Assembly: GCF_002844195.1 (NCBI RefSeq)
Contig: NZ_PEND01000001.1
Coordinates: forward strand, 248,001-312,000
DNA length: 64,000 nt
Direction: 5' to 3'
Source: Halegenticoccus soli
Lineage (GTDB): Archaea > Halobacteriota > Halobacteria > Halobacteriales > Haloferacaceae
In this document: positions 6,222-63,652 of the stretch, piece after piece
How positions within the stretch are numbered: position 1 is the stretch's first letter
How the letters are laid out: every line of letters starts with the position of its first letter
Made by a program: the position numbers and the translations under genes
The notes under the pieces: model-generated
The model's input: only the letters and a program-made list of their open reading frames with translations
Told to the model about the DNA's origin: nothing
Databases searched by the model: none

Positions 6222-6557
6222 TCAGCCGCGGTCGGCGCCGCGGACCGACTCGATCGCGGCGTCGGCGCGCTTTACGCCGAAGCCGTCGGCGAGCTGCGCC
6301 GAGACGGCGTCGTCGTCGACGCGCCCCGGCGGGGGGTCGCCGACGGGGCGGAGTGTGACGGTGACGGTCGCCTCGACCGCGAGGTCGTTCAGGCCCGGTC
6401 GGAGGCCGCGAACGTCGAGGTCGTCGACGGCCGTCACGCCCTCGATCCGCCGGATGCGCTCCGTGACGCCCTCGCGGAGGTCTCCGGGGGTGTGTCTCGA
6501 TACGAGCACCGTGAGATCGGCTCTGGCGACCACTTCGGGCCGTTTCTGGACTGACAT
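6222..6557 (-). CDS. Conserved-looking hypothetical protein (111 aa)
   Basis: A 111-residue soluble protein without cysteine or membrane segments. It alternates beta-strand-like and helical segments (ADLTVLVSRHTPGDLREGV, then VEATVTVTLRPVG), suggesting a small alpha/beta domain. Acidic composition and high GC third positions agree with a real haloarchaeal gene. I do not recognise a family and the flanking genes give no clue. Confidence 0.55.
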   Translation of the reverse strand: MSVQKRPEVVARADLTVLVSRHTPGDLREGVTERIRRIEGVTAVDDLDVRGLRPGLNDLAVEATVTVTLRPVGDPPPGRVDDDAVSAQLADGFGVKRADAAIESVRGADRG

Positions 6558-6891
6558 GAGGCTCCTGTCGCGATTCGAACGCTGACGCGCGGGGCGCGCC
6601 TCCGGGGATCGATTCCCAGGAGCGGTCGGCGTCGCGGTGCGGCGAGCGGCGGAGACGCCTCTCGCGGGCCCGTGCCTCGGGGGCGTCGGCGGGTCGGCCG
6701 GTCCCGACGCGGTTCGCGCTCGCGCGAACGACGTGCACGGCGATTCGGGACGCGGCGGACGCGCGGACGCCCGACGGTCGTCGGCGACGACGCGGCGACA
6801 GAAGGGAACCGCACCCGGTTCCGACTTCGCAGTCGACGCTCTCCGGTCGGAGTCCGAGAGAACGGTCGACCGTCGCCGCGGCGTCTTCCGC
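6558..6891. other. Gap without recognisable gene
   Basis: These 334 bases are open in several frames, but the translations are Arg/Pro-rich and lack the acidic bias of true genes here. I see no tRNA, promoter of note or repeat. Confidence 0.5.
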
Positions 6892-7053
6892 TTACGCGAC
6901 GACGAGGTCGGACGGGGTGCGCGGGAGCATCACCGCCGTTCCGAACCGACCGCCGTCCCGCTTGGCGCAGGTGCCGACGCGGGGATACCGGCCGTACCCG
7001 CCGTTCTCGGCGGAACGGGCGATCGGCCGGAGCGTGTGGTTCGGAACGGTCAT
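6892..7053 (-). CDS. Possible small protein (53 aa)
   Basis: A 53-codon frame beginning MTVPNHTLRPIARSAENG and ending PSDLVVA. Its only supporting signal is a Shine-Dalgarno-like GAGGTGA four bases before the ATG. The protein is basic and glycine-rich, unlike most neighbours, with one cysteine. No family recognised; it could be a chance frame. Confidence 0.35.
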   Translation of the reverse strand: MTVPNHTLRPIARSAENGGYGRYPRVGTCAKRDGGRFGTAVMLPRTPSDLVVA

Positions 7054-7256
7054 GTGCTCACCTCGTGCGTGACCGGGATGTCACGCGAACGACGTACACG
7101 ATTCATCTTTCGGACGGTACTTAAAATTTGCCGAGGTGTGGGTGGGCATAACGTGGCACGGAGGGGACAGACTCCGTCTCGGGACGTTCAGGCCCGCCTA
7201 CCCGCGACGGGCTTAGGAGCCGTCGCCTCCGAGTGCCGAACGGAGCACGTCTTGTC

Positions 7257-9074
7257 ATGCCCATCACACCGATCGAGCCGTCCGGGACGGACGGCGCAGC
7301 CACGCCCGACTACCAGGAGGTCTCGACGCCGGTGCTTGTCGTCGGAGCCGGCGCGGCCGGCGTTCGCACGGCGATCGAACTGGCCGAGAACGGCGTCAAA
7401 CCCCTCGTCATCGGCAAGCGCGCCCACGGGGACGCGCACACGACCTGGGCGGCGGGGGGGATCAACGCGGCGCTCGGCAGCCTCGATCCCGAGGACGACT
7501 GGACGATCCACGCCGCGGACACGTTCCGGGAGGGCCACTTCGTCAACGACCCCGACGCGGTCGAACTGGTCGCGCGAAACGCCCCGGCGCGGATCCTCGA
7601 ACTCGACGAGTGGGGCGCCGGGTTCGACCGGACCGACGACGGGAAGATCAACCAGCGGTACTTCGGCGCGCAGTCGTTCCGCCGGACCTGCTTCGTCGGC
7701 GACCGGACGGGCGAGGCGATCCTCTCGGCGCTCGTCGCGCACGCCCGCGAACTCGGCGTCCCGTACCGCGACGACGTGATGATCACGCGGCTGCTCTCGG
7801 ACGGCCGGCGCGTCCACGGCGCGGCGGGCTACGACATGGACGACGGCGGGTTCGTCCTGTTCGAGTCGCCCCGCGTCGTGCTCGCGGCCGGCGGTTACGC
7901 CGCGCTGTACAACCGCCACACGTCCGAGGCCGACGAGAACACCGGCGACGGACCGGCACTCGCCTGCGACGCGGGCGCGAACCTGCTCGACGCGGAGTTC
8001 GTGCAGTTCCACCCGACGGGCATGGTCGCCCGCGAGGAGTGGGACGACGACTGGGACGGCCAGCTCGTCACCGAGGCCGTCCGCGGCGAGGGCGGTCGAC
8101 TGTACAACGCGCGGGGCGAGCGCTTCATGGAGCGGTACTCGCCGACGCGGATGGAGCTCGACGCCCGCGACGTCGTCGCCCGCTCGATCGCCCGCGAGAT
8201 CCGCGAGGGGCGCGGCACCGAGCGGGGCGGCGTGCACCTCGACATCTCCCACCGCGACCGCGCGTTCATCGAGGAGCGCCTGCCGCGGATGTACGAGCGG
8301 TTCGCCGACCTCGGCGTCGACATCGCCGAGGAGCCGATGGAGATCGCCCCGACGGCGCACTACTCGATGGGCGGCGTCGACGTCGACCCGCGCACCGGTC
8401 GGACGAGCGTCGACGGCCTCTACGCGGTCGGCGAGACGAGCAGCGGGCTCCACGGCGCGAACCGCCTCGGCGGCAACTCCCTCGCGGAGACCGTCGCGCT
8501 GGGCCAGCTCGTCGGCGACCACCTCGCCGAGACGATCGACGAGGCCGATCCGACGCTCGACGGGGCCGAATCGGCGCTCCCCGACGGGATGCGGGCGGCG
8601 GCCGAGCGGGAGTTCGAGGCGCTCGTCGCCCTGGAGGGGGCGGACGGCGACACCGCGCCGGCGGAGCTCGTCGCGGCCCTCGGAGACCTGCTCTGGGAGC
8701 GCGCGGGACTCCTCCGGGACGCCGAGGGGCTCGAAGCCGGCCTCGGCGCGCTCGACGACCTCCGCGGGCGGCTGTCGGATCTCCGCGTCGAGGGCGGCCG
8801 TACTGGCCGGGACTTCGAGTTCGCCGTCGACCTCGCGTTCATGTTTGCGGTCGCGGAGGCGATCCTCCGGTCGGCGGCGTTCCGCACCGAGTCGCGCGGG
8901 GCGCACTTCCGGACGGACTTCCCCGACGAGGACGACGACTGGCGCGTCAACGTCGTCCTCGCCCGCGGCGACGACGGGATGGACCTGCGGACCCGGCCCG
9001 TCGGCACTCCGAGCGAGGAGGTTCGGGAGGCGCTGGACGAGGGATACGAACTGGACTATCACCACCTGGAGTGA
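7257..9074 (+). CDS. FAD-dependent oxidoreductase (NadB/SdhA superfamily)
   Basis: A 605-residue flavoprotein of the succinate dehydrogenase/fumarate reductase/L-aspartate oxidase group. It shows the dinucleotide fold VLVVGAGAAGVRTAIEL (about residue 24), the FAD-contact motif HTTWAAGGINAALGS, the substrate-site blocks QFHPTGM and EAVRGEGGRL, HYSMGGVDVD, and the FAD-binding end GLHGANRLGGNSL. A helical C-terminal domain (about 440-560) is present as in the family. No iron-sulfur subunit, cytochrome subunit, nadA or nadC lies beside it. It is therefore an orphan, and its substrate (aspartate, succinate/fumarate or other) is open. The ATG at 7257 is chosen over an upstream GTG at 7233. Confidence 0.85.
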   Translation: MPITPIEPSGTDGAATPDYQEVSTPVLVVGAGAAGVRTAIELAENGVKPLVIGKRAHGDAHTTWAAGGINAALGSLDPEDDWTIHAADTFREGHFVNDPDAVELVARNAPARILELDEWGAGFDRTDDGKINQRYFGAQSFRRTCFVGDRTGEAILSALVAHARELGVPYRDDVMITRLLSDGRRVHGAAGYDMDDGGFVLFESPRVVLAAGGYAALYNRHTSEADENTGDGPALACDAGANLLDAEFVQFHPTGMVAREEWDDDWDGQLVTEAVRGEGGRLYNARGERFMERYSPTRMELDARDVVARSIAREIREGRGTERGGVHLDISHRDRAFIEERLPRMYERFADLGVDIAEEPMEIAPTAHYSMGGVDVDPRTGRTSVDGLYAVGETSSGLHGANRLGGNSLAETVALGQLVGDHLAETIDEADPTLDGAESALPDGMRAAAEREFEALVALEGADGDTAPAELVAALGDLLWERAGLLRDAEGLEAGLGALDDLRGRLSDLRVEGGRTGRDFEFAVDLAFMFAVAEAILRSAAFRTESRGAHFRTDFPDEDDDWRVNVVLARGDDGMDLRTRPVGTPSEEVREALDEGYELDYHHLE

Positions 9075-9258
9075 CGTCCGGCCCCGCCCTCCCGATCCCC
9101 GGTTCGTCGGCGTCTGCGTCTGCGTCGGCGGGGGCACACCGACGCGCGAGGCGGGAGGTGGGACGGCGGAAAAGCGGAAGACCGCGAGCGTGCCAGTGGT
9201 AACCATTATCATCCGCCGTCGCTGACCTTAATCGCGTTCGTCCCCGACCTAGGGTCGA

Positions 9259-10245
9259 ATGACCGCTGCGCTCGAAATACGGGACCTGCGGAAGCGCTAC
9301 GCCGACGTGCAGGCGCTCGACGGGGTTTCGTTGACCGTCCCCGAGGGCTCCTTCTTCGGACTTCTCGGCCCGAACGGGGCGGGCAAGACGACGTTCATCA
9401 ACATCCTCGTCGGCCTCGTCCGGAAGAGCGGCGGCGAGGCCCGGGTGTTCGGCTACGACGTGGAGGACGACTACCAGGAGGCGCGCGACCGGATCGGCCT
9501 CGCGCCGCAGGAGTTCAACGTCGACCGCTTCTTCCCGATCAAGGAGGTGCTGGAGCACAAGGCCGGCTACCACGGCATTCCGGCCGACGAGGCGCGCGAG
9601 CGCGCCGACGAGGTGCTGAAGCAGGTCGGCATCTACGACAAGCGCGACACCCGGTTCGACTGGCTCTCCGGCGGGATGAAGCGTCGGTTCATGCTCGCCC
9701 GCGCGCTCATCACCGACCCCGACCTCCTGATCCTGGACGAGCCGACCGCCGGCGTCGACGTGCAGCTCCGGCGGGACCTGTGGGACCTCATCATCGACCT
9801 CAACGAGGCGGGGACGACGATCCTCCTCACCACCCACTACATCGAGGAGGCCGAGCGGCTCTGCGACGAGGTCGCCATCCTCGACTCCGGGAACGTCGTC
9901 ACGGTGGCGAGCCCCGAGGAGCTGATCGACCGCGGCGCGGACCGGATCGTCGTCCAGCTTCAGGACGCTCCGGCGGGGACGCCAGACCTCCCCTTCGAGG
10001 ACGATCGGGTCGACGCGGTCGAACTCGACGGGAACCGCCTCGTCGTCACCGCGCGGCGCGGCGGACTCGTCGCGCCCGACCTCGTCCGGGCGCTCGACCG
10101 CGCGGGACACGGGATCGTCGACCTGGAGATATCGCGGACCTCGCTGGAGGAGGTGTTCGTCGAGCTGACGCGCACCGAGGACGGGGCGGCGGTCGACGAG
10201 CCGGCCCCCGCGCTCGCGGCGAACGGTGAGGGCGGACGTCGATGA
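9259..10245 (+). CDS. ABC transporter ATP-binding protein (ABC-2 type)
   Basis: The ATPase of a two-component exporter. It has 328 residues with Walker A GPNGAGKTTF (about 37-46), Q-loop (GLAPQEFNV), signature LSGGMKRR, Walker B LLILDEPTAGVD and H-loop TTHYIEEAE. After about residue 225 a C-terminal regulatory extension runs to an Ala/Pro-rich tail. The sequence is closest in style to DrrA/NodI-like exporters of drugs or polysaccharides. It overlaps the permease gene by four bases (ATGA), so the two are translationally coupled. Confidence 0.93.
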   Translation: MTAALEIRDLRKRYADVQALDGVSLTVPEGSFFGLLGPNGAGKTTFINILVGLVRKSGGEARVFGYDVEDDYQEARDRIGLAPQEFNVDRFFPIKEVLEHKAGYHGIPADEARERADEVLKQVGIYDKRDTRFDWLSGGMKRRFMLARALITDPDLLILDEPTAGVDVQLRRDLWDLIIDLNEAGTTILLTTHYIEEAERLCDEVAILDSGNVVTVASPEELIDRGADRIVVQLQDAPAGTPDLPFEDDRVDAVELDGNRLVVTARRGGLVAPDLVRALDRAGHGIVDLEISRTSLEEVFVELTRTEDGAAVDEPAPALAANGEGGRR

Positions 10246-11024
10246 GCGTCGCCTCGAAGCTCCTGCCGGTCGGCTTTTACACCCTCGCCAAGCGGGAGAT
10301 CCTGCGGTACGTCCGCCGGCCGAAGAACACGTTCGTCCCGCCCCTCATCACGAACGTCCTGTACTTCTCGGTGTTCGGCGTCGTCCTCGGAACCCGCGTC
10401 GGGGAGATCGCCGGCGTGCCGTACATCCTTTTCATCCTCCCCGGGCTGGTCGTCCTCGGCGCGATCTCGAACGCCTTCGAGAACGCCTCCTTCTCCATCT
10501 TCCACGGCCGCTGGAACGAGTACATCCACGAGACGCTCACGTCGCCGCTGTCGTACGCGCAGATGGTCTGGGCGTACGTCGCCTCCAGCGCGATCCGCGG
10601 AATCGCCGTCGGCGTCCTCATCTCGGTCATCGGCGCGATCTTCACCACCGTCGGGGTCGAGCGGCCGTTCTACCTCGTCGCGTTCATGCTGGTCATCACC
10701 GTGCTGTTCGCCGGGCTCGGCGTTCTTGGGGGCCTCTGGGCCGAGGACTTCGACGATCTCACCATGATGAACCAGTTCATCCTCCGCCCGCTGGTGTTCT
10801 TCGGCGGGGTCTTCTACTCGCTGGACGACCTGAACTCGGAGCTGTTCTACACCGTCTCGCTGTTCAACCCGATGATCTACATGGTCAACGGCGTCCGCTA
10901 CGGCTTCATCGGCACCGCCGAGGTCGACCCGAACGCCTCGCTCGTCGTCCTGACGGTCCTCGCCGCGGCGGTCGCGGCGCTGGACGTCGCCCTGTTCCGG
11001 CGCGGATACGGGCTCACCGAGTGA
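10242..11024 (+). CDS. ABC-2 type permease
   Basis: The membrane partner of the preceding ATPase. It has 260 residues and six predicted transmembrane helices, with the conserved cytoplasmic segment NAFENASFSIFHGRWNEYIH typical of the DrrB/NodJ family, and FILRPLVFFGGVFYSLDDL in the fourth-fifth helix region. The start ATG lies inside the end of the ATPase gene. The exported substrate is unknown; lipid, drug or glycan export are usual for this family. Confidence 0.92.
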   Translation: MSVASKLLPVGFYTLAKREILRYVRRPKNTFVPPLITNVLYFSVFGVVLGTRVGEIAGVPYILFILPGLVVLGAISNAFENASFSIFHGRWNEYIHETLTSPLSYAQMVWAYVASSAIRGIAVGVLISVIGAIFTTVGVERPFYLVAFMLVITVLFAGLGVLGGLWAEDFDDLTMMNQFILRPLVFFGGVFYSLDDLNSELFYTVSLFNPMIYMVNGVRYGFIGTAEVDPNASLVVLTVLAAAVAALDVALFRRGYGLTE

Positions 11025-11064
11025 GGCGACCCCTCTCCGCGACTGTCTTTTTCGGACACAAGCG

Positions 11065-11625
11065 TCACTCCCGGTCGATCTCGGGTCCGACCCGGGTCGC
11101 CCCGTCGCGGAGCACCCCGAGACCCGGCGCTCCGTCGTGCACCCAGACGCCGAGCGCGACCGCGGCGAGCGCGCACTCGAACAGGAGCGTCGGCGTCGGA
11201 TCCAGCGACAGGAAGAACTCCAGGAAGCTGCGGTCGTACTCGATCCGGTCCGCGGGGACGGCCGGCCACAGCCAGAAGGCCATATCGGCGAAATCACCTC
11301 GGAGCAGCGGGTACAGCGAGTCGCCGACGAGGTGCGAGACGTGCCCGAAGGCGAACGCCGCTCCGGCGGACTCCCGCCCGTACCGACGCCCGAGCCACAC
11401 CGCGGCGACGCCGACGGCGACCGCGAAGAAGGCCGAGTGCGCGAACGAGCGCCCCGTGGGGAGCACGCCGAACGTCCACGACAGCGGCTTGTCGATCAGA
11501 TCGGGGAACTGGCTGCCGACGGCGAGCGCGAGCGCGCAGAGCCCGTCGGGACCGATCCCGGTCCGTCGCCGCGTCCAGAGCGTGTAGAGGAGGTACCCGA
11601 ACGCGACGTGACCCCAGGGGAGCAT
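11065..11625 (-). CDS. DUF457/YdjM-type membrane metal-dependent hydrolase
   Basis: A 186-residue membrane protein. It opens MLPWGHVAFGYLLY and carries the family's scattered His/Asp motifs: QFPDLIDKPLSW, RSFAHSAFF and FGHVSHLVGDSLYP. These lie between four to five hydrophobic helices and could form a metal site facing the membrane. The family (also called LexA-binding, inner membrane-bound hydrolase-like) is poorly characterised; the biochemical reaction is unknown. It is convergent with the ABC permease gene. Confidence 0.82.
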   Translation of the reverse strand: MLPWGHVAFGYLLYTLWTRRRTGIGPDGLCALALAVGSQFPDLIDKPLSWTFGVLPTGRSFAHSAFFAVAVGVAAVWLGRRYGRESAGAAFAFGHVSHLVGDSLYPLLRGDFADMAFWLWPAVPADRIEYDRSFLEFFLSLDPTPTLLFECALAAVALGVWVHDGAPGLGVLRDGATRVGPEIDRE

Positions 11626-11695
11626 CGGCCGGCGGTACGTCCACGCCCGGTAAAGGCGCTTCGCACTCGGGGTGCGGCGTCGGCGCTGCCCTCTC

Positions 11696-11893
11696 TCACC
11701 CGCTCCACTCGCCCTCGATGTCCGACGCGACCTGCGTCCGCCACCGCTCGAACCGCCCCGCGCACGCCGGCCGGTCGTCGATGTGCGCGATGAATCCGGC
11801 GCCGCCGTCTTCCAGCGCCGCGCCGCAGAACGGGCACCGCTCGGGATCGCTCCAGCGCGTTTCTGTCGCTGTCGTTGTCGTCTGGGCGCTCAT
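11696..11893 (-). CDS. Small Cys-pair (zinc ribbon-like) protein (65 aa)
   Basis: A 65-residue protein with ERCPFCGAAL (Cys20-x2-Cys23), a His at 37 in FIAHIDDRPAC and a third Cys at 44. This gives a C-x2-C...H...C set that could bind one zinc. Ends in an acidic tail. Haloarchaea carry many such micro-proteins and most are uncharacterised. The start ATG lies just after an AT-rich stretch (11920-11965) holding the likely promoter. Confidence 0.7.
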   Translation of the reverse strand: MSAQTTTTATETRWSDPERCPFCGAALEDGGAGFIAHIDDRPACAGRFERWRTQVASDIEGEWSG

Positions 11894-12257
11894 GTCGAGT
11901 GGACGTATGGCGAGAGAGGTAATCAATTTTTGGCTTATCGGGCTATTATGTCGAAAATATCCTTGGATACCTCTGACGAATCGGTGTGAATCGGTACGTA
12001 TGAATACACGAGTGGTGCCGTTGCGGCTGACTCCGCCGTCCGCCGCGTGCGTTCCCCGCCCGTCCAGCGGTTCCGGCGATCGGCGGGATGCGGTGCCGCG
12101 ATCGAGCGGCGCGCGGGTCGGTTGAACGGCCCGGTACGGCGGCTGTCGGTGCGGTTCCTCCGTTCGAAGCGCCGCGGCCGAGGCGCTCACAGATATATCA
12201 TCCGGTCGTCGCTTGGCGACGGCATCCGACACAGAGTTAAGTGCCGAACCACCTGGT
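11894..12257. other. Divergent intergenic region before tfb
   Basis: The left part (11920-11970) is AT-rich, with a TATCC-TT-GGATA palindrome near 11959, and fits a promoter for the minus-strand zinc-ribbon gene. A TATA-like AGATATATCA at 12191-12200 is placed for tfb. A 41-codon frame from 12001 has no acidic bias and is not called. Confidence 0.5.
12191..12200 (+). promoter_or_regulatory. TATA-like box for tfb
   Basis: AGATATATCA stands out in a GC-rich setting 58 bases before the preferred tfb start. This would place transcription start near 12222 and leave a leader of some 35 bases. Confidence 0.4.
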
Positions 12258-13229
12258 ATGCAATTGATGACAAATTCGTTTCGTGACCGAGAGCGCGCCC
12301 GCGAAACGGATGCGACGGAGTCCGAAGGCGAGCGCGAGCGGACGTGCCCGGAATGCGGCTCCGACACCCTTGTCAGAAGCGAGGACCTGGGTGAACTCCT
12401 CTGCGACGACTGCGGCCTCGTCATCGAGGAGGAAAGCATCGATCGCGGCCCCGAGTGGCGGGCGTTCAACCAGCAGGAACGAGACAGCAAATCGCGCGTC
12501 GGCGCGCCCGTTACCCAGCGGATGCACGACAAGGGGCTCACGACGACGATCGACTGGAAGAACAAGGACGCCTACGGGCGGTCCATCTCCTCGCAGAAGC
12601 GTAGCCAGATGCAGCGGCTCCGCAAGTGGCAGGAGCGCATCCGCACGAAGGACGCGGGCGAGCGCAACCTCCAGTTCGCGCTCTCGGAGATCGACCGCAT
12701 GGCCTCCGCGCTCGGCGTGCCCCAGTCGGTTCGGGAGGTCGCGTCCGTGATCTACCGCCGCGCGCTCAACGAGGACCTGATCCGCGGGCGCTCGATCGAG
12801 GGCGTCGCCACGAGCGCCCTCTATGCCGCCTGCCGCCAGGAGGGCATCCCGCGCAGCCTCGACGAGGTCGCCGAAGTGTCGCGGGTGCCGCAGAAGGAGA
12901 TCGGCCGGACGTACCGGTACATCTCCCAGGAGCTCGGCCTCGAACTCAAGCCCGTCGACCCCAAGCAGTTCGTCCCCCGCTTCGCCTCGGAACTCGGCAT
13001 GAGCAAGGAAGCGCAGGCGAAGGCGACGGAGATCATCGACGTGTCGGCAGAACAGGGGCTGCTGTCGGGGAAGTCGCCGACGGGGTTCGCGGCCGCGGCG
13101 ATCTACGCGGCGTCGCTCCTCTGCAACGAAAAAAAGACCCAGCGAGAGGTCGCCGACGTCGCGCAAGTCACCGAGGTCACCATCCGCAACAGGTATCAAG
13201 AGCAGATCGAAGCGATGGGGCTGTACTGA
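12258..13229 (+). CDS. tfb: Transcription initiation factor IIB
   Basis: TFB bridges TBP-bound promoter DNA and RNA polymerase. The 323-residue protein has an N-terminal zinc ribbon (CPECGSD...LCDDCG, about 22-45) and the B-reader/linker region ([14 protein letters not shown]). Two cyclin-like repeats follow, the first from about 115 ([17 protein letters not shown]) and the second from about 210, ending in a helix-turn-helix for BRE contact ([20 protein letters not shown]). ATGs at 12258 and 12267 are both possible. Haloarchaea carry several TFB paralogues; this one looks full-length. Which promoter set it serves cannot be read from sequence. Confidence 0.96.
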
Positions 13230-13270
13230 CGGCGCGGGGGCGGTCGTCTTCCGGACGTGTCCGGACGACG

Positions 13271-13336
13271 GACAGTCGACCGAATCGATGCTGACAGTCC
13301 ACAGAACCGACGCTGACAGTCCGCAGAACCGACGCG
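13271..13336. repeat. Three tandem 22-bp repeats before the MmgE/PrpD gene
   Basis: Three adjoining imperfect copies of a 22-base unit start GACAGTC at 13271, 13293 and 13315. The second and third differ by only two bases (GACAGTCCACAGAACCGACG against GACAGTCCGCAGAACCGACG); the first is more diverged. They lie between tfb and the start at 13375, so they are placed as upstream activator or operator sites; 22 bases is two helical turns. The repeats are seen; the function is inferred. Confidence 0.75.
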
Positions 13337-13374
13337 ACCGCACTGTTTTGGCCGTCGGCGCGGATCGTTCGGGT

Positions 13375-14730
13375 ATGACAACGACGGCCGAACTGGCGGC
13401 GTTCGTCACCGAAACCGGGTTCGACGACCTCTCGGAGGGGGTGGTCGAGGAGACGAAAAAGCGCGTCCTCGACTCCGTCGGCATCGCGCTCGGCGCCGTC
13501 GAGGCGGAGGCGACCGAGGCCGTCCTCGCGACGGCGCGGGAGGCGAGTCCGGGCGGCGGCGACTGTCGGCTCTGGGCGACGGACCGGTTCGCCTCGCCGC
13601 CGCAGGCGGCGATGTACAACACGTCGCTGACCCGGTACCTCGACTTCATGGACTCGTTTCTCGCCCCCGGCGAGACGCCGCACCCGAGCGACAACATCGG
13701 CGCGGCGGTCGCCTGCGCCGAGTACACCGAAGCCTCCGGGAAGGACCTGCTGACCGGCATCGCCGTGGCCTACGAGGTCCAGGGCGAGCTCGCGTGGAAC
13801 GCGCCAGTCCGCGACAAGGGGTGGGACCACGTCACCCACACGGTCATCTCGGCGGCGTGCGCGGCGTCGAAGCTGCTGGGACTCGACTACGAGCAGACGC
13901 GGAACGCCATCGGCATCGCCGGGACGGCGCACAACGCCCTCCGCGTGACGCGGACCGAAGGGATCAACATGTGGAAGGGAATCGCCTCGGCCAACGCCGC
14001 CCGCAACGCCGTCTACGCCGCCCTGCTCGCCGAGAACGGCGTGGAAGGCCCGGTGAACCTCTTCGAGGGGCGGAAGGGCTGGAAGCAGGTGATCTCGGGG
14101 GACTTCGAGGTGGATCTCGATCCCGGCTGTACGCGCCTGTTCGACGTGATGACGAAGCGGTACGTCGCCGAGACGTACGCCCAGTCGGCCGTCGAGGGCA
14201 TCATCGAGGTCGCGGAGCGCGAGGGGATCGACCCGCGCGAGGTCGAGGAGATCCGCCTGCGGACGTTCGCGGGCGCGAAACTCATCATCGGCGGCGGCGA
14301 GGGGAGCCGCTACGTCGTCGAAACGAAGGCGCAGGCCGACCACTCGCTGCCGTACATGCTGGCGGTCGCGCTCATCGACAAGGAGCTCACGGACGACGCC
14401 TACGATCCCGAGCGCATCAGCCTCGAAGACGTGCAGGACCTGCTGCAGACCGTCGAGGTCGAGGAGGACCCCGAGCTCACGGAGCGGTTCGAGGCGGGCG
14501 AGATGCCCGCTGTCGTCGACATCGAACTGTCGGACGGCACCGTCCACCACGTCGAAAAAGACCAGTTCAAGGGCCACCCGAACGACCCGATGGACTGGCC
14601 CGACATCGAGGACAAGTTCCGGACGCTGGCCGCGCCGATCTACGGAGAGTCCCGGCAGGACGACCTGATCGAGGTCATCCGATCGCTCGAAGGGCGCGAC
14701 ACCGTCGACCTCGTGGCGCTGCTCGACTGA
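13375..14730 (+). CDS. MmgE/PrpD family protein
   Basis: A 451-residue member of the MmgE/PrpD family, which includes 2-methylcitrate dehydratase and cis-aconitate decarboxylase. The N-terminal helical domain has the typical LDSVGIALGAVEAEAT segment, RYLDFMDSF (the family's N-D-x-x-D region, here LDFMD) and PSDNIGAAVACAEY. The C-terminal lid domain follows about residue 265 (KRYVAETYAQSAVEGI). Methylcitrate-cycle partners (prpB, prpC) are not adjacent, so calling it PrpD itself would go too far. The start ATG follows a set of 22-bp repeats. Confidence 0.87.
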   Translation: MTTTAELAAFVTETGFDDLSEGVVEETKKRVLDSVGIALGAVEAEATEAVLATAREASPGGGDCRLWATDRFASPPQAAMYNTSLTRYLDFMDSFLAPGETPHPSDNIGAAVACAEYTEASGKDLLTGIAVAYEVQGELAWNAPVRDKGWDHVTHTVISAACAASKLLGLDYEQTRNAIGIAGTAHNALRVTRTEGINMWKGIASANAARNAVYAALLAENGVEGPVNLFEGRKGWKQVISGDFEVDLDPGCTRLFDVMTKRYVAETYAQSAVEGIIEVAEREGIDPREVEEIRLRTFAGAKLIIGGGEGSRYVVETKAQADHSLPYMLAVALIDKELTDDAYDPERISLEDVQDLLQTVEVEEDPELTERFEAGEMPAVVDIELSDGTVHHVEKDQFKGHPNDPMDWPDIEDKFRTLAAPIYGESRQDDLIEVIRSLEGRDTVDLVALLD

Positions 14731-14862
14731 CCGACCGTCGCGGCGGCGGTCGTCTCGGCGGCGGTCGTCGCAGCGGGGTGGTCGCAGCGGCGATCACCGG
14801 CCGAGGGCCGTCGGCCGACGCGGAGATACAAGTACTTTAGTCCGTCTCTCGAACGCGCGGCC

Positions 14863-15375
14863 ATGGTGAAGCAGGTCACCGTGACGAGCGTCTACGCGGG
14901 CTTTCTCATCAGCGTTCTCGGCGCGGTCGCGTGGCTCACCGGACGGGCGTTCATCTTCCCGAGCCTGGGTCCGTCGGCCTACCTCCTCGCGTCGGTCCGA
15001 CGCGGCGAGATCATCTCGGCGCGGTACTTCCTCGGCGGACACGCCATCGGCGTGGTCGCCGGCCTCCTGGCGTACAACGTCTTCGCTCCGGGACTCGCCA
15101 TCACGGGGGCGGCTCCGTCCCTCTCGCCCGACCAGCTTCGCCTCGTCGGGAGCGCCGTGACCTCGGTCGCGCTCACGACCGCGGGGATGGCGTGGACGGA
15201 CGCCGTCCACCCGCCGGCCTGCGCGACGACGCTCATCGTCTCGCTCGGCCTCCTCCCGTCGCCGATCGACGGGATCATCATCCTGGTCTCGGTGGCGATC
15301 CTCTTTGCGATCCACGTCGCCGTGACGCGCTACGTCGCGCCGACGCTCGTCCCCGAGACGTACCCGTGGTCGTGA
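14863..15375 (+). CDS. HPP family membrane protein
   Basis: A 170-residue integral membrane protein with four to five helices and both hallmarks of the HPP family: FIFPSLGPSAYLL (about 30-42) and the name-giving DAVHPPACATTLIVSLG (about 113-129). Plant and cyanobacterial HPP proteins have been linked to nitrite transport; the archaeal role is not established. It sits between the MmgE/PrpD gene and comA on the same strand with gaps of about 95-130 bases. Confidence 0.86.
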   Translation: MVKQVTVTSVYAGFLISVLGAVAWLTGRAFIFPSLGPSAYLLASVRRGEIISARYFLGGHAIGVVAGLLAYNVFAPGLAITGAAPSLSPDQLRLVGSAVTSVALTTAGMAWTDAVHPPACATTLIVSLGLLPSPIDGIIILVSVAILFAIHVAVTRYVAPTLVPETYPWS

Positions 15376-15470
15376 GCTCCGTCCGGTCTCCCTGAAAGTC
15401 CCCCGCAGGCTACTCTCGCGTGTCACTGACGAATCACTAAGTGCGTCGCGGGCGAACGTCCGACCGAACC

Positions 15471-16295
15471 ATGACCGAGCGAGCATTCGACTTTCTGCGC
15501 GTCAACGAACGCGGCGAGAAGCCCCGGGAGAAGGGAATCACGGAGATACGCGGGCCGTACTACGACCCGATGGGACCGCGCGAGCTGCGCGACATCCTGG
15601 AGACGATGGGTCGGTACGTCGACATCTACAAGTTCTCGGGCGGGTCGTTCGCCCTGATGGACCGCGAGGTGGTCGAGGAACTCATCGGCATCTGCCACGA
15701 TCACGACGTGCAGGTGTCGACCGGCGGGTTCATAGAGCACGTCCTGATCGCGGACCACGACAAGGTCGACGACTACATACAGGAGTCGAAGGAGCTCGGC
15801 TTCGACATCGTCGAGATTTCGAGCGGATTTCTCGCGATCGACACCGAGGATCTCGTCGCGCTGACGGAGCAGGTGACGGAGGCGGGTCTGAAGGCGAAGC
15901 CGGAGATCAACGTCCAGTTCGGCGCGGGCGGGGCGTCGAGCGTCGAGGAGCTCGAAAGCGAGGCCGCGATCGATCCCGGGAGCGCCATCGAGGAGGCGAG
16001 GCGGCACCTCGACGCCGGGGCCTACAAGATCATGGTCGAGTCGGAGGGGATCACGGAGCGCGTCCGCGAGTGGCGGACGGACGTCGCCTTCGAGATCGCC
16101 AACGAGGTCGGCGTCGAAAACTGCGTCTTCGAGGCGGCCGACCCGGAGGTGTTCGAGTGGTACATCAAGAACTTCGGCCCGAAGGTGAACCTGTTCGTCG
16201 ACAACTCCCAGATCGTCGAACTGGAGTGCATGCGGTCGGGGCTGTGGGGGAAGAAGAGCTCCTGGGGCCGGATCACGAGCTACAGCCGCGAGTAG
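15471..16295 (+). CDS. comA: Phosphosulfolactate synthase
   Basis: ComA joins sulfite to phosphoenolpyruvate to give phosphosulfolactate, first step of one coenzyme M route and of sulfolactate synthesis. The 274-residue TIM-barrel protein shows the family blocks REKGITEIRGPYY, DIYKFSGGSFAL, STGGFIEHVL, FDIVEISSGF and AGAYKIMVESEGI, and LFVDNSQIVELECMRSG near the C-terminus. The start at 15471 follows an A-rich short leader. Coenzyme M is not expected in a non-methanogen, and no comB, comC or comDE partner is visible here. The physiological product may instead be sulfolactate or another sulfonate (inference). Confidence 0.9.
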   Translation: MTERAFDFLRVNERGEKPREKGITEIRGPYYDPMGPRELRDILETMGRYVDIYKFSGGSFALMDREVVEELIGICHDHDVQVSTGGFIEHVLIADHDKVDDYIQESKELGFDIVEISSGFLAIDTEDLVALTEQVTEAGLKAKPEINVQFGAGGASSVEELESEAAIDPGSAIEEARRHLDAGAYKIMVESEGITERVREWRTDVAFEIANEVGVENCVFEAADPEVFEWYIKNFGPKVNLFVDNSQIVELECMRSGLWGKKSSWGRITSYSRE

Positions 16296-61063: not shown

Positions 61064-61492
61064 ATGACAGTGGTCAGCGTTTCCATGCCGGAGGAGTTGC
61101 TCGCCCGCATCGACGCCTTCGCCCAGGAACACGGCTACACCGGCCGCAGCGAGGTCATCCGCGAAGCGTCCCGAAACCTCCTGGGGGAGTTCGAGGACAA
61201 ACGCCTCGAAGACCGGGAGCTGATGGCCGTCGTGACCGTCGTGTTCGACTACGAGACGACGAGCGTCGAAGAGCGGATGATGCACCTCCGCCACGAGTAC
61301 GAGGGGCTCGTCGCGTCGAACTTCCACAGCCACGTGGGCAACCACTACTGCATGGAGATTTTCGTCCTCGAAGGGGAACTCGAAGATATCTCGACGTTCG
61401 TCGGGAAGATCCGTGCGACCAAGGACACGCTCAGCGTCGACTACTCCGTCATGCCCGTCGACGACTTCTCCCCCTTCACCGAGATCGAGTGA
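61064..61492 (+). CDS. nikR: Nickel-responsive regulator NikR
   Basis: A 142-residue ribbon-helix-helix regulator. The DNA-binding part is [20 protein letters not shown], then [20 protein letters not shown]. The ACT-like metal domain carries the full high-affinity nickel set: His77, His88 and His90 (NFHSHVG) and Cys96 (HYCMEIF), aligning one residue after the His76, His87, His89 and Cys95 of Escherichia coli NikR. It should therefore be a true nickel sensor that represses nickel uptake genes, which are not in the window. The start follows GATTAATAC directly. Confidence 0.94.
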
Positions 61493-61611
61493 GGTCCCGC
61501 GCCCGTCGACCACGTTCGGGACCGCGGCGACGCTCGACGATTCAACCGGGCGCGGCATCTCGCCGGCCGAGAAGCGACTATTATTAATATTCGAAGGTCT
61601 ATTTTTAATAC

Positions 61612-62046
61612 ATGGCCGTCGTGAGCGTCTCGATGGACGATAGGCTGCTCGAACGGGTCGACGAGTTCGTCGCGGACCACGGCTACACCGGCCGCAGCGA
61701 GGTCGTCCGCGAAGCGGTGCGAGCGCTGCTGGGCGAGTTCCGCGACCGGCGGCTCGCCGACCGAAACCTGGCGGGCGCCGTCACGGCGCTTTTCGAGTAC
61801 GACAGCCCCGACGTCGAGGCGCGGATGACGGAGCTCCGCCGCGAGCACGGGTCGCTCATCGCGTCCAACGCCCACCACTGCGTCCGCGACAACGGCGGGT
61901 GCGTCGAGTCGTTCGTCGTCGAGGGCGACCTCGCGGAGATCTCGGCGTTCGTCGCCAAGCTCCGCGCGTCGGCAGAGACCGTGACCGTCGAGTACTCGCT
62001 CGCGCCGACTGACGCGATCGGCGAGCCGCTGTTTCCCGACCGCTGA
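61612..62046 (+). CDS. NikR paralogue with altered metal site
   Basis: A 144-residue paralogue of the upstream NikR. The DNA-binding part is almost the same ([20 protein letters not shown]). In the metal domain only His88 is kept. His77 is Arg, the second His of HxH is Cys90 (NAHHCVRDNGG), and the Cys is displaced by one residue to Cys97. It also has an extra His (His89). The set Cys90, Cys97, His88 could prefer another metal such as zinc, copper or cobalt, or a redox signal (inference). The start follows TTTTTAATAC, similar to the promoter of the first copy. Confidence 0.88.
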   Translation: MAVVSVSMDDRLLERVDEFVADHGYTGRSEVVREAVRALLGEFRDRRLADRNLAGAVTALFEYDSPDVEARMTELRREHGSLIASNAHHCVRDNGGCVESFVVEGDLAEISAFVAKLRASAETVTVEYSLAPTDAIGEPLFPDR

Positions 62047-62085
62047 CGTCGCCGGATTCGGTCGCCTCTCGCCCCCTCGGGGCGA

Positions 62086-62751
62086 TCAGCCGTCGAACTC
62101 GGCGACGTCCCTTCCGATCGAGACGACGTTCTTCACGAGGTTGCCGTGCGCCCGCTGTAACCGCTCGGACAGCGCCTGCTGGGAGATGCCGAACTCGGCG
62201 GCGAGCTCCTCGGTCGACGCGCGGCTCGGTATCTCGTAGTATCCGCGCTCGAACGCCTCCTTGACGGCCTCGTACTGGCTCTCCGTGAGGTCGAACTGCG
62301 CGCGCCGGGCCTTGTCGATCTCGTAGATCCGGTCGACCCGGACGTCGATGCCCCGCTCCCGGCAGAAGGCGTTGGCCGCCGCGGCGTCCTCCCGATCCGT
62401 GAACACGATCGTGAGCCGCCAGCTGTCGTCGTCCGTGAACGCCTGCTGAACGACGGCTTGCAGTTCGTTCGTGACGTACTCGACGAGCGTCTCGTTTTCG
62501 ACCCAGTCCATCCGGTAGAGCCACTCCTCGTCGAACTCGGCAAGCAGACGGACGTTCTCGACCGTCGGATCGTCGTCCAGGAGCCGGTTCAGGCGGTCGG
62601 GGTCGCACTTCATCGCCCAGACGAACGGCACGAGCGTCGCCTCCGTCGCCACGACGCGCTCGATCTCGAACTCCGCGTCCGGCATCTGCTCCAGCGTCCG
62701 TTCGAGCATGAACTCGTCCGCCGGCAACGTGACCTCCGCGGCTGTAGGCAT
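62086..62751 (-). CDS. Bat-type helix-turn-helix regulator
   Basis: A 221-residue regulator of the bacterioopsin-activator type. An N-terminal domain (about 1-160: TLPADEFMLERTLEQMPDAE, then WAMKCDPDRLNRLLDDDPTV) is followed by the Bat HTH_10: FDLTESQYEAVKEAFERGYY, RASTEELAAEFGISQQALSE and RLQRAHGNLVKN. The N-terminal region may bind an effector. Convergent with the NikR paralogue, 39 bases apart. Target unknown. Confidence 0.9.
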   Translation of the reverse strand: MPTAAEVTLPADEFMLERTLEQMPDAEFEIERVVATEATLVPFVWAMKCDPDRLNRLLDDDPTVENVRLLAEFDEEWLYRMDWVENETLVEYVTNELQAVVQQAFTDDDSWRLTIVFTDREDAAAANAFCRERGIDVRVDRIYEIDKARRAQFDLTESQYEAVKEAFERGYYEIPSRASTEELAAEFGISQQALSERLQRAHGNLVKNVVSIGRDVAEFDG

Positions 62752-62965
62752 CGAGGGGGGGTTTGACGCGCAGGGACTTATACGGATTCCCGCCGCCTCG
62801 ATGCCCTCGCTGGCCGGCGGAAACGCGGCGGCGCGCCCGCCGGAAATCGCCCGATGTCGTCGGTAGTCGAGCGCCGGCGGTCCGCCTCGCTCGACTCGCC
62901 ACGGATAAGTAACCTGTTATAACAAGTACGATCGATTACCTTCGTTTGCCGATACACTGTTCGTC

Positions 62966-63652
62966 GTGACGACCGTCGTCGAACTCAATCTGTCTCCTGA
63001 AGCGTTCATTCTCTCTGAAACTGTCGCCGATCACCCCGGGATCGAACTCGCGGTCGTGCGGGCCACCGCGCACCCCTCCGTGCTCGCTCCCATCTTCTGG
63101 GTTTTCGACGCCGACTTCGACGCGCTGACGGCGTCGCTTGAGTCCGATCCGACCGTCCGGGGCGTCGAACTGGTCGCGTCGTTCGACGGCGAGCGGCTGT
63201 ACCGGGCCGAGGACGTCGAGCACGGCGAACTGCTTCGGTACCTCGTCTGCGAGAAGGGGGCGACCGTCCAGCGGGCGTCGCTGTCGGGCGGCCGGTGGCG
63301 GTTCCGGGCGCTGTTCGACGAGCAGGAGAACGTGTCCGGGTTGTTCGACTTCAGCCGCCGACAGGGGCTCGACGTGCGCGTCGACCGGGTGTACCCGCTC
63401 TCCGAGCTCCACCGAGCCGGTCTCGGGCTCTCGGAGGCGCAGTACGAGGCGATCGGGCTGGCTCTGACAGCGGGGTACTACGACATCCCCCGGGAGGCGA
63501 CGATCGCTGACCTCGCCGGCGACCTCGACATCTCCTCGCAGGCGCTGTCCGAGCGGCTGCGGCGCGCGCACGGGGCGCTCGTCCGGGAGGCCGTCCTTCC
63601 CCGGTTCGACGAGCAGTCGCTCTCCGACTCCGACCCGCTCTCCGGCCCGTAG
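62966..63652 (+). CDS. Bat-type helix-turn-helix regulator (second copy)
   Basis: A 228-residue paralogue of the regulator at 62086, divergent from it. It has the same layout: LSPEAFILSETVADHPGIEL, FWVFDADFDALTASLESDPT, a middle region with DEQENVSGLFDFSRRQGLDV, and the HTH_10 block LGLSEAQYEAIGLALTAGYY, DLAGDLDISSQALSERLRRA. The two differ mainly in the central effector region. It probably arose by inverted duplication. AT-rich sequence upstream (62905-62960, TAAGTAACCTGTTATAACAA) holds an inverted-looking GTAACCTGTTATAAC promoter element. Confidence 0.9.
   Translation: MTTVVELNLSPEAFILSETVADHPGIELAVVRATAHPSVLAPIFWVFDADFDALTASLESDPTVRGVELVASFDGERLYRAEDVEHGELLRYLVCEKGATVQRASLSGGRWRFRALFDEQENVSGLFDFSRRQGLDVRVDRVYPLSELHRAGLGLSEAQYEAIGLALTAGYYDIPREATIADLAGDLDISSQALSERLRRAHGALVREAVLPRFDEQSLSDSDPLSGP

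Follow-up and report, generated by a model that had tools for sequence, protein, structure and literature searches.

A ComA-fold protein of a distinct class is paired with an MmgE/PrpD-family enzyme in haloarchaea and some bacteria

The locus

The window, a stretch of 64,000 nucleotides from the haloarchaeon Halegenticoccus soli (contig NZ_PEND01000001.1, positions 248,001 to 312,000), holds three consecutive genes that code for an enzyme of the MmgE/PrpD family, a small membrane protein of the HPP family and a protein that has the fold of the phosphosulfolactate synthase ComA (Table 1). Pfam matches confirm the identity, position and strand of all three, as given in the first-pass annotation, which had singled out the presence of comA in an organism that is not a methanogen; haloarchaea are non-methanogens. 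We report here that the conserved unit consists of MmgE/PrpD and ComA, not of ComA and HPP, and that the ComA-like protein belongs to a class that is probably distinct in function from phosphosulfolactate synthase.

The search of the whole genome of H. soli gives this single ComA match. Its reading frame allows an in-frame start as early as 15441, but the relatives align from 15471 (N-terminus MTERAFDF), which is the start listed in Table 1. The nearest named relative is Halegenticoccus tardaugens, whose ComA is 95% identical.

Table 1. Genes of the H. soli locus, with their positions in the window and the profile matches on which their assignment rests
Feature	Position	Strand	Match and remarks
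Transcription initiation factor TFB	12213..13229	+	NF001658 455 bits; upstream of the MmgE–ComA pair
MmgE/PrpD-family enzyme	13375..14730	+	PF03972 (MmgE_PrpD_N) 260 bits, PF19305 (_C) 157 bits
HPP-family small membrane protein	14863..15375	+	PF04982 49 bits (cut-off 27.2)
ComA-fold TIM-barrel protein, distinct class	15471..16295	+	PF02679 264 bits (cut-off 25.2)

Conservation of the MmgE–ComA pair

The conservation of the locus was examined in a sample of 195 genomes of the order. ComA-family genes are present in 45 of them and fall into two classes, one genome (G111) having two distinct copies; the surroundings of comA were fetched for every match, apart from the near-identical second copy that G194 and G114 each have. 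The class to which the ComA of the window belongs, which we call class A, is found in 42 genomes, and its members in the sample are at least 70% identical to the protein of the window. For MmgE, we counted as orthologues the matches that are at least 60% identical to the MmgE of the window, which retains 48 of the 53 matching genomes (G174, at 50%, and four genomes with matches of only 32–38% were dropped).

Class-A ComA and the MmgE orthologue occur together in 41 genomes, so that the MmgE neighbour, to which the first-pass annotation had drawn attention, proves meaningful: 41 of the 42 class-A genomes also hold it, while 7 of the 48 genomes with MmgE lack the ComA (Fisher 1.2e-33 for the co-occurrence, uncorrected for descent). 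The two genes are also neighbours. Of the 42 class-A loci, 40, including that of the window, have MmgE upstream of ComA on the same strand, within a flank of about 9 kb, the two starts being 1.4–8.6 kb apart. Two loci depart from this arrangement: in G102, MmgE is found at a distance of 35 kb, and G193 has none.

The genes that are inserted between MmgE and ComA vary from lineage to lineage, and HPP is one such insert. A tblastn search with the HPP of the window (alignments of more than 40 residues) detected no HPP in the order sample at the 45 comA loci other than that of the window itself, and in a genome scan that covered 48 loci, HPP accompanies comA solely in H. tardaugens, besides the window. 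The idea that ComA and HPP form a functional pair was therefore rejected, since no locus tested outside Halegenticoccus has HPP with comA. The earlier proposal that HPP moves an anion such as sulfite was tied to the conservation of this pairing and, as a general reading, it falls with it. The association of comA with HPP is local and that of comA with MmgE is widespread; the first-pass annotation keyed on the wrong neighbour. Literature searches on phosphosulfolactate synthase, PrpD, HSA32 and haloarchaea turned up no report of an MmgE–ComA pair.

A distinct class of ComA-like proteins

The homology of the protein of the window to ComA is clear. In a structure comparison, its AlphaFold2 model (mean pLDDT 81) superimposes on the ComA of Methanocaldococcus jannaschii (1qwg) with a Z score of 28.1 and an rmsd of 2.3 over 240 residues, while the next, unrelated barrel has a Z score of 15.2; no other TIM-barrel relative comes near ComA among the matches listed. 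The protein has the TIM-barrel fold, belongs to the same family and shares the glutamates E103, E133 and E168 with 1qwg and with the ComA of Bacillus subtilis (1u83), to which it is 28% and 24% identical, respectively, but its partner is MmgE, not ComB. It scores 102.7 bits against TIGR03849, the equivalog model of archaeal ComA, whose cut-off is 280; this shortfall alone is a weak argument, since a canonical haloarchaeal copy (L033) is also under the cut-off (237).

The residues are more telling. Residue conservation was tabulated from tblastn alignments of at least 200 residues, one per locus (n=126), from which broken or short ComA copies were excluded; this leaves 77 distinct sequences (72 of class A and 5 canonical), to which two PDB sequences were added. 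The seven canonical sequences are those of M. jannaschii, B. subtilis and Xanthobacter and the four haloarchaeal sequences of the second class, class B. All seven have Lys137, Arg170, Gly173, Pro207, Gln212 and Asn227 (M. jannaschii numbering); Lys137 is a catalytic residue of phosphosulfolactate synthase. In class A, position 137 is a glutamine in 72 of 72 sequences (Gln149 in the protein of the window), and Arg170 is deleted in all 72, Gly173 falling in the same gap; Asn227 is replaced by phenylalanine in 71/72 and Gln212 by phenylalanine in 68/72. The residues E103, S105, G107, E133 and E168 are kept in all 72, and K43 and E205 in 71. Many polar residues are invariant in the 28 of 28 ComA-like members that were aligned. 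A phylogenetic tree separates the seven canonical sequences from the 72 of class A with a support of 100/100; the branch between the two groups amounts to 2.65 + 7.35 changes per column about the midpoint root, in a tree in which several long branches were flagged.

These sequence comparisons suggest that class A is probably not a phosphosulfolactate synthase. We read the pattern as that of a barrel that would have retained its probable metal site, and whose anion-binding part would have been rebuilt for another substrate.

The coenzyme M operon of Xanthobacter has a certain likeness to the pair, in that a ComA-family gene (XcbB1) is borne by a plasmid and adjoins genes that are annotated as fumarate lyases. 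It differs in that its ComA has the canonical residues and in that its neighbours comprise, besides the two fumarate-lyase genes, a deaminase-like gene, with no MmgE listed.

Coenzyme M genes and canonical ComA in haloarchaea

The locus of the window does not resemble a locus for coenzyme M, as the first-pass annotation had already suspected from the gene order. ComB has no match in the genome (ComC and the Xanthobacter-type steps XcbC1/D1/E1 were not searched), and no sequence passes the cut-off for the beta subunit of sulfopyruvate decarboxylase, the best of 6 weak matches reaching 38.8 bits for a cut-off of 221.5 (the alpha subunit was not searched). Over the 195 genomes, there is no association between class-A ComA and ComB, which co-occur in 4 of the 42 class-A genomes (Fisher 0.92), the class-A comA and any ComB then being on different contigs.

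The situation is different in the four genomes of the sample that have a canonical ComA, where ComB is beside ComA in all four. In these class-B loci (L031, L032, L033 and L048), ComA, which is 28–32% identical to that of the window, precedes a gene of the same cluster as the VOC/glyoxalase gene of L031, and next comes a gene of the ComB family. The latter passes the cut-off of PF04029 at all four places, the L033 copy scoring 101.8 bits against TIGR00298, for a cut-off of 175. A tripartite tricarboxylate transporter (TctCBA type) comes next in L031, where it was tested, and in L032, where it was assigned by clustering. The class-B loci are likely to be a sulfolactate cluster in haloarchaea.

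The MmgE/PrpD partner

The closest solved structures to the MmgE of the window are those of Escherichia coli PrpD (1szq, E 6.7e-28) and of cis-aconitate decarboxylase (7br9, E 1.4e-25). Its residues D90, S94, H103, K261 and E266 are PrpD-like. The corresponding columns were inspected in the relatives, from 93 matches of at least 430 residues without stops, 75 of which are distinct; copies that are split or too short, for instance the one of G156, were excluded. The columns of PrpD D100, T104, H112, K284 and E290 contain D in 74, S in place of T in 74, H in 75, K in 73 and E in 74 of the 75 sequences. We chose these five columns by alignment to residues of the active site of human cis-aconitate decarboxylase, among which are H103, H277 and Y318. 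The column of H277 of mammalian cis-aconitate decarboxylase is occupied by a glutamate in 74/75 sequences, as in PrpD.

The partner thus resembles E. coli PrpD and B. subtilis MmgE in its family and in these columns, and PrpD also acts on citrate. It differs from PrpD in that the column of Trp110 is a threonine in 75/75, in that its scores are far under the cut-offs of the three curated PrpD equivalogs (164, 144 and 118 bits for 950, 575 and 458, respectively), and in that a search for PrpB at E 0.001 gave no match in the genome of the window (PrpC was not searched). According to PMC9468356, wild-type PrpD converts citrate into cis-aconitate in one step and does not rehydrate it to isocitrate. 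By the same token, MmgE on its own would go no further than cis-aconitate, and the next step would call for a second enzyme.

Genes linked to the pair

Of 80 distinct loci, 20 have, no more than seven genes from the pair, a gene for a thiamine diphosphate (ThDP) enzyme that resembles acetolactate synthase (NF006187). Sixteen of these 20 loci have a class-A ComA and four have MmgE only, while the gene is absent from the four class-B loci. Its place varies: it is divergent and beside MmgE in Halococcus loci, a few genes downstream in Haladaptatus, and behind ComA, in convergent orientation, in others. An orthologue is present in 36 of the 42 class-A genomes, versus 48 of the 153 others. In the 36 genomes that have both, it is within 10 kb of comA in 17 and within 40 kb in 27; it is farther away on the same contig in 3 and on another contig in 6. 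From genome size alone, we would expect about 1 in 200 of these ThDP genes to be within 10 kb of comA.

In at least 27 of 84 genomes, this ThDP gene has on its own strand, less than 300 bp away, a gene of the succinate semialdehyde dehydrogenase (SSADH) type, a lower bound since the pairs were picked by eye; in the genome of the window the two matches are 20 bp apart (contig C6). In Methylocystis, an SSADH that is 54% identical to the haloarchaeal one is separated from MmgE by a single gene. The mere presence of an aldehyde dehydrogenase (ALDH) was dropped as evidence, its relatives being found in 128/195 genomes. Other partners are found in particular lineages. In L074 (8296-12025, minus strand), MmgE and a ComA of reduced length are separated by three genes of the E1-alpha, E1-beta and E2 types of 2-oxoacid dehydrogenases, all below the cut-offs of their models. 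Members of these three gene clusters accompany MmgE in L081 and L083 too, in whose genomes the search gave no class-A ComA. We read the ThDP, SSADH-type and 2-oxoacid dehydrogenase partners as handling 2-oxoacids of the kind that follows isocitrate.

The arrangement recalls the bypass of cyanobacteria, in which the two genes are also adjacent and the ThDP enzyme is also similar to acetolactate synthase. The likeness lies in an acetolactate synthase-like ThDP gene that adjoins an SSADH-type gene; the difference is that the haloarchaeal genes are linked to MmgE and to a ComA-like gene, and that their activity on 2-oxoglutarate is putative. Of 14 control sequences, among them a cyanobacterial one, two pass the cut-off of the ThDP family. 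The reactions of the bypass, those of 2-oxoglutarate decarboxylase and SSADH, are described in PMC10418658.

Spread outside the order

A contig scan and a plasmid search revealed class A in Salinibacter ruber, Methylocystis sp. MJC1, Methylosinus trichosporium OB3b, Wenzhouxiangella and an Oleiphilaceae assembly. In Vreelandella massiliensis (L135, 8001 onward), a pair of transposase-type genes has inserted into the class-A gene and interrupts it, and an Actinomycetales assembly (L134) has a more distant class-A ComA (47%). On the plasmids of Salinibacter, Methylocystis and Methylosinus, MmgE/PrpD is the annotated gene directly upstream of ComA, and the same order is found on the contig of an uncultured bacterium, where MmgE is 48% identical. 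In the genome scan, 39 of the 48 loci hold MmgE, which is upstream in 38 and downstream in L113. The plasmid search returned 23 records with a match, of which 17 are haloarchaeal. We read the MmgE–ComA unit as mobile and common to archaea and bacteria, some carriers having the ComA-like gene alone.

The Salinibacter plasmid that bears the pair (L138) also has, within 7 kb of ComA, a phosphoenolpyruvate hydrolase-like gene (14409-16280, minus strand; PF09370, 363 bits) and a bacteriorhodopsin gene.

A putative iron–sulfur-free route from citrate

We tentatively propose that the pair constitutes an iron–sulfur-free side route of the tricarboxylic acid cycle, in which the dehydration of citrate by MmgE would be followed by a hydration to isocitrate by the ComA-like protein. 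MmgE would convert citrate into cis-aconitate without an iron–sulfur cluster, the ComA-like enzyme would add water to cis-aconitate to give isocitrate, and isocitrate dehydrogenase would produce 2-oxoglutarate. The ThDP enzyme would then convert 2-oxoglutarate into succinate semialdehyde and SSADH would convert the latter into succinate, as in cyanobacteria. Aconitase and 2-oxoglutarate:ferredoxin oxidoreductase are sensitive to stress, and the stretch from citrate to succinate would avoid both of these iron–sulfur enzymes. HPP would be a late insert in Halegenticoccus, perhaps a carrier of an anion or an acid. As for the chemistry, canonical ComA adds a nucleophile, sulfite, to an acrylate-type acid, phosphoenolpyruvate, so that the addition of water to cis-aconitate would be the same kind of step.

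A number of observations speak against this proposal. The hydration by the ComA-like protein is a chemical analogy, the activity of the ThDP enzyme on 2-oxoglutarate is also put forward by analogy, and no activity is known for any member. Matches to PF00330, the family of aconitase, are found in all 42 class-A genomes (with one match in G008, which is 81% complete), and the genome of the window has an intact aconitase (1188 bits for a cut-off of 719). PF00330 alone cannot separate aconitase from LeuC outside the genome of the window, and a strict search over the order mixed both and was not used for counts. That the pair is an obligate replacement of aconitase was rejected on these grounds. 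The partner genes are not strictly tied to the pair: the ThDP gene is present in 48 genomes that have no class-A ComA and absent from 6 of the 42 that have it, and in the genome of the window the ThDP and SSADH-type genes are on another contig than the pair. NCBIfam names the ThDP gene of that genome acetolactate synthase (622 bits for a cut-off of 509), and the SSADH-type gene is under the cut-off of its best model (602 bits in the genome of the window, and 630, for 730); its relatives are so common that their presence alone says little.

The pair itself is not universal among the carriers of class A. Five bacterial class-A loci (L129, L131, L133, L134 and L135) have no MmgE in the flanking DNA examined, which in L129, L134 and L135 covers about 8 kb upstream; the same is true of the archaeal scan loci L116 and L124 and of the fragments L136 and L137 in the DNA examined, and the annotated stretch of Natrinema halophilum (L142) lists no MmgE. 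Related genomes share ancestry, so that the Fisher values overstate the evidence. In L134, ComA belongs to a row of genes (6510-14583) with a HIBADH-type reductase, a CMD protein, a TcuA-like (tricarballylate) dehydrogenase (465 bits for a cut-off of 369), ComD/ComE-like halves (105 and 143 bits for cut-offs of 148 and 221.5), an ALDH and a second ThDP enzyme, and ABC-transporter-like genes surround it; this operon is another setting, and a probably catabolic one. Finally, the replacement of Trp110 by threonine in MmgE is compatible with other substrates, and PrpD acts on citrate less efficiently than aconitase does, according to PMC9468356.

In its widest form, the proposal would hold that two unrelated proteins make up an iron–sulfur-free aconitase, which with the ThDP enzyme and SSADH would form a full route from citrate to succinate that survives oxidative and heat stress and is spread on plasmids in halophilic archaea and bacteria, and that plant HSA32 is in the same hydratase class; we regard this whole as rather unlikely.

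In four genomes of genus g17 (G053, G061, G069 and G085), an aconitase-type PF00330 match lies about 9–18 kb from the cluster of MmgE, ComA and ThDP genes, G053 being taken as a circular single contig.

Alternative functions

The pair and its link to the ThDP gene hold without the citrate step, and a two-enzyme route that acts on another carboxylic acid would explain them as well: MmgE would make an acrylate-type acid other than cis-aconitate from a hydroxy-acid, the ComA-like enzyme would add or remove a nucleophile, and the ThDP/SSADH-type pair would decarboxylate and oxidise the 2-oxo-acid. The L134 locus, which looks catabolic with its TcuA-like gene, ComDE-like halves, ALDH and ABC-transporter-like genes, favors such a route; however, the identified neighbours (many were clustered, not annotated) point to no alternative acid. 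Considering that aconitase is present, that some carriers lack MmgE and that the L134 operon exists, we keep the citrate route as a tentative reading and we place a carboxylate route of unspecified substrate slightly above it, though still short of an even chance.

The first-pass annotation had proposed that the locus makes sulfolactate or another sulfonate. The ComA-like protein would then be a phosphosulfolactate synthase, the ThDP enzyme a sulfopyruvate decarboxylase and the ALDH a sulfoacetaldehyde dehydrogenase. The fold and the Pfam family of ComA still speak for this idea, as do the ComD/ComE-like halves downstream in L134, both of which are under their cut-offs. It is weakened by the loss of Lys137 and Arg170 in 72/72 sequences, by the lack of ComB in the genome of the window and of any association with ComB over the 195 genomes, and by the ALDH, which scores 602–630 bits with the SSADH model versus 257–289 with that of SafD; we now find it improbable.

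A variant of the 2-methylcitrate cycle of propionate degradation, where MmgE would be the 2-methylcitrate dehydratase and the ComA-like protein a 2-methyl-cis-aconitate hydratase, would agree with PrpD being the nearest solved relative and with the PrpD-type columns. On the contrary, the genome of the window has no PrpB (PrpC was not searched), MmgE is far below the PrpD equivalog cut-offs, and Trp110, the residue of PrpD that is closest to the methyl group, is a threonine in 75/75 sequences, which makes this variant somewhat less probable still.

It could also be that the ComA-like protein has no enzymatic activity and serves as a stress protein, as does HSA32 of plants, a protein that stabilises a chaperone. 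Of 80 distinct loci, 5 indeed have genes for universal stress proteins (USP) close to the pair, and Dps and DsrE genes are near it in Salinibacter; a tomato transcript described as "phosphosulfolactate synthase-related" is identified as HSA32 in PMC3162933, and HSA32 protects or stabilises HSP101 in heat memory, according to PMC11840417. The invariance of the polar residues in 28/28 members and the frequent partnership with an enzyme gene speak against such a function, which we consider very unlikely.

Least likely of all is an itaconate route, in which MmgE would be a cis-aconitate decarboxylase and the ComA-like protein would add a nucleophile to itaconate: MmgE does match the mammalian decarboxylase (E 1.4e-25), but the column of H277, which is reported to be important in that enzyme (PMC7347537), is a glutamate in 74/75, although bacterial IRG1 also lacks H277.

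Significance and a possible link to HSA32

In 19 of the 21 plasmid records that carry class A, the gene is annotated as phosphosulfolactate synthase, so that organisms which probably have no sulfonate or coenzyme M metabolism are credited with one. The loss of marker residues and the usual company of a citrate-type dehydratase suggest that the gene serves a branch of carbon metabolism that has escaped recognition, and not coenzyme M synthesis. The residue signature of class-A ComA is clean and its partner is a frequent one; its reaction could thus be traced with two purified proteins. If the pair did act as an aconitase, it would be able to stand in for a near-universal iron–sulfur enzyme to which it is not homologous, and a biochemical role would be suggested for plant HSA32. 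The latter has a C-terminal motif of the VDxSQI..LEC type and is not known to have an MmgE partner. Its likeness to ComA lies in this motif and in the name "phosphosulfolactate synthase-related", used in PMC3162933, from which the idea is drawn that HSA32 may belong to class A.

Regulatory genes around the locus

In H. tardaugens (L090), a TFB that is 96% identical to that of the window is found at the equivalent place upstream of the pair. TFB genes also adjoin the pair in Halopiger (L141) and ComA in Halosimplex (L116), and it is possible that a dedicated stress TFB serves the pair. Elsewhere in the window, the region 61064-63652 contains two tandem NikR-like regulators, then two HTH_10/BAT-type regulators in opposite orientations.

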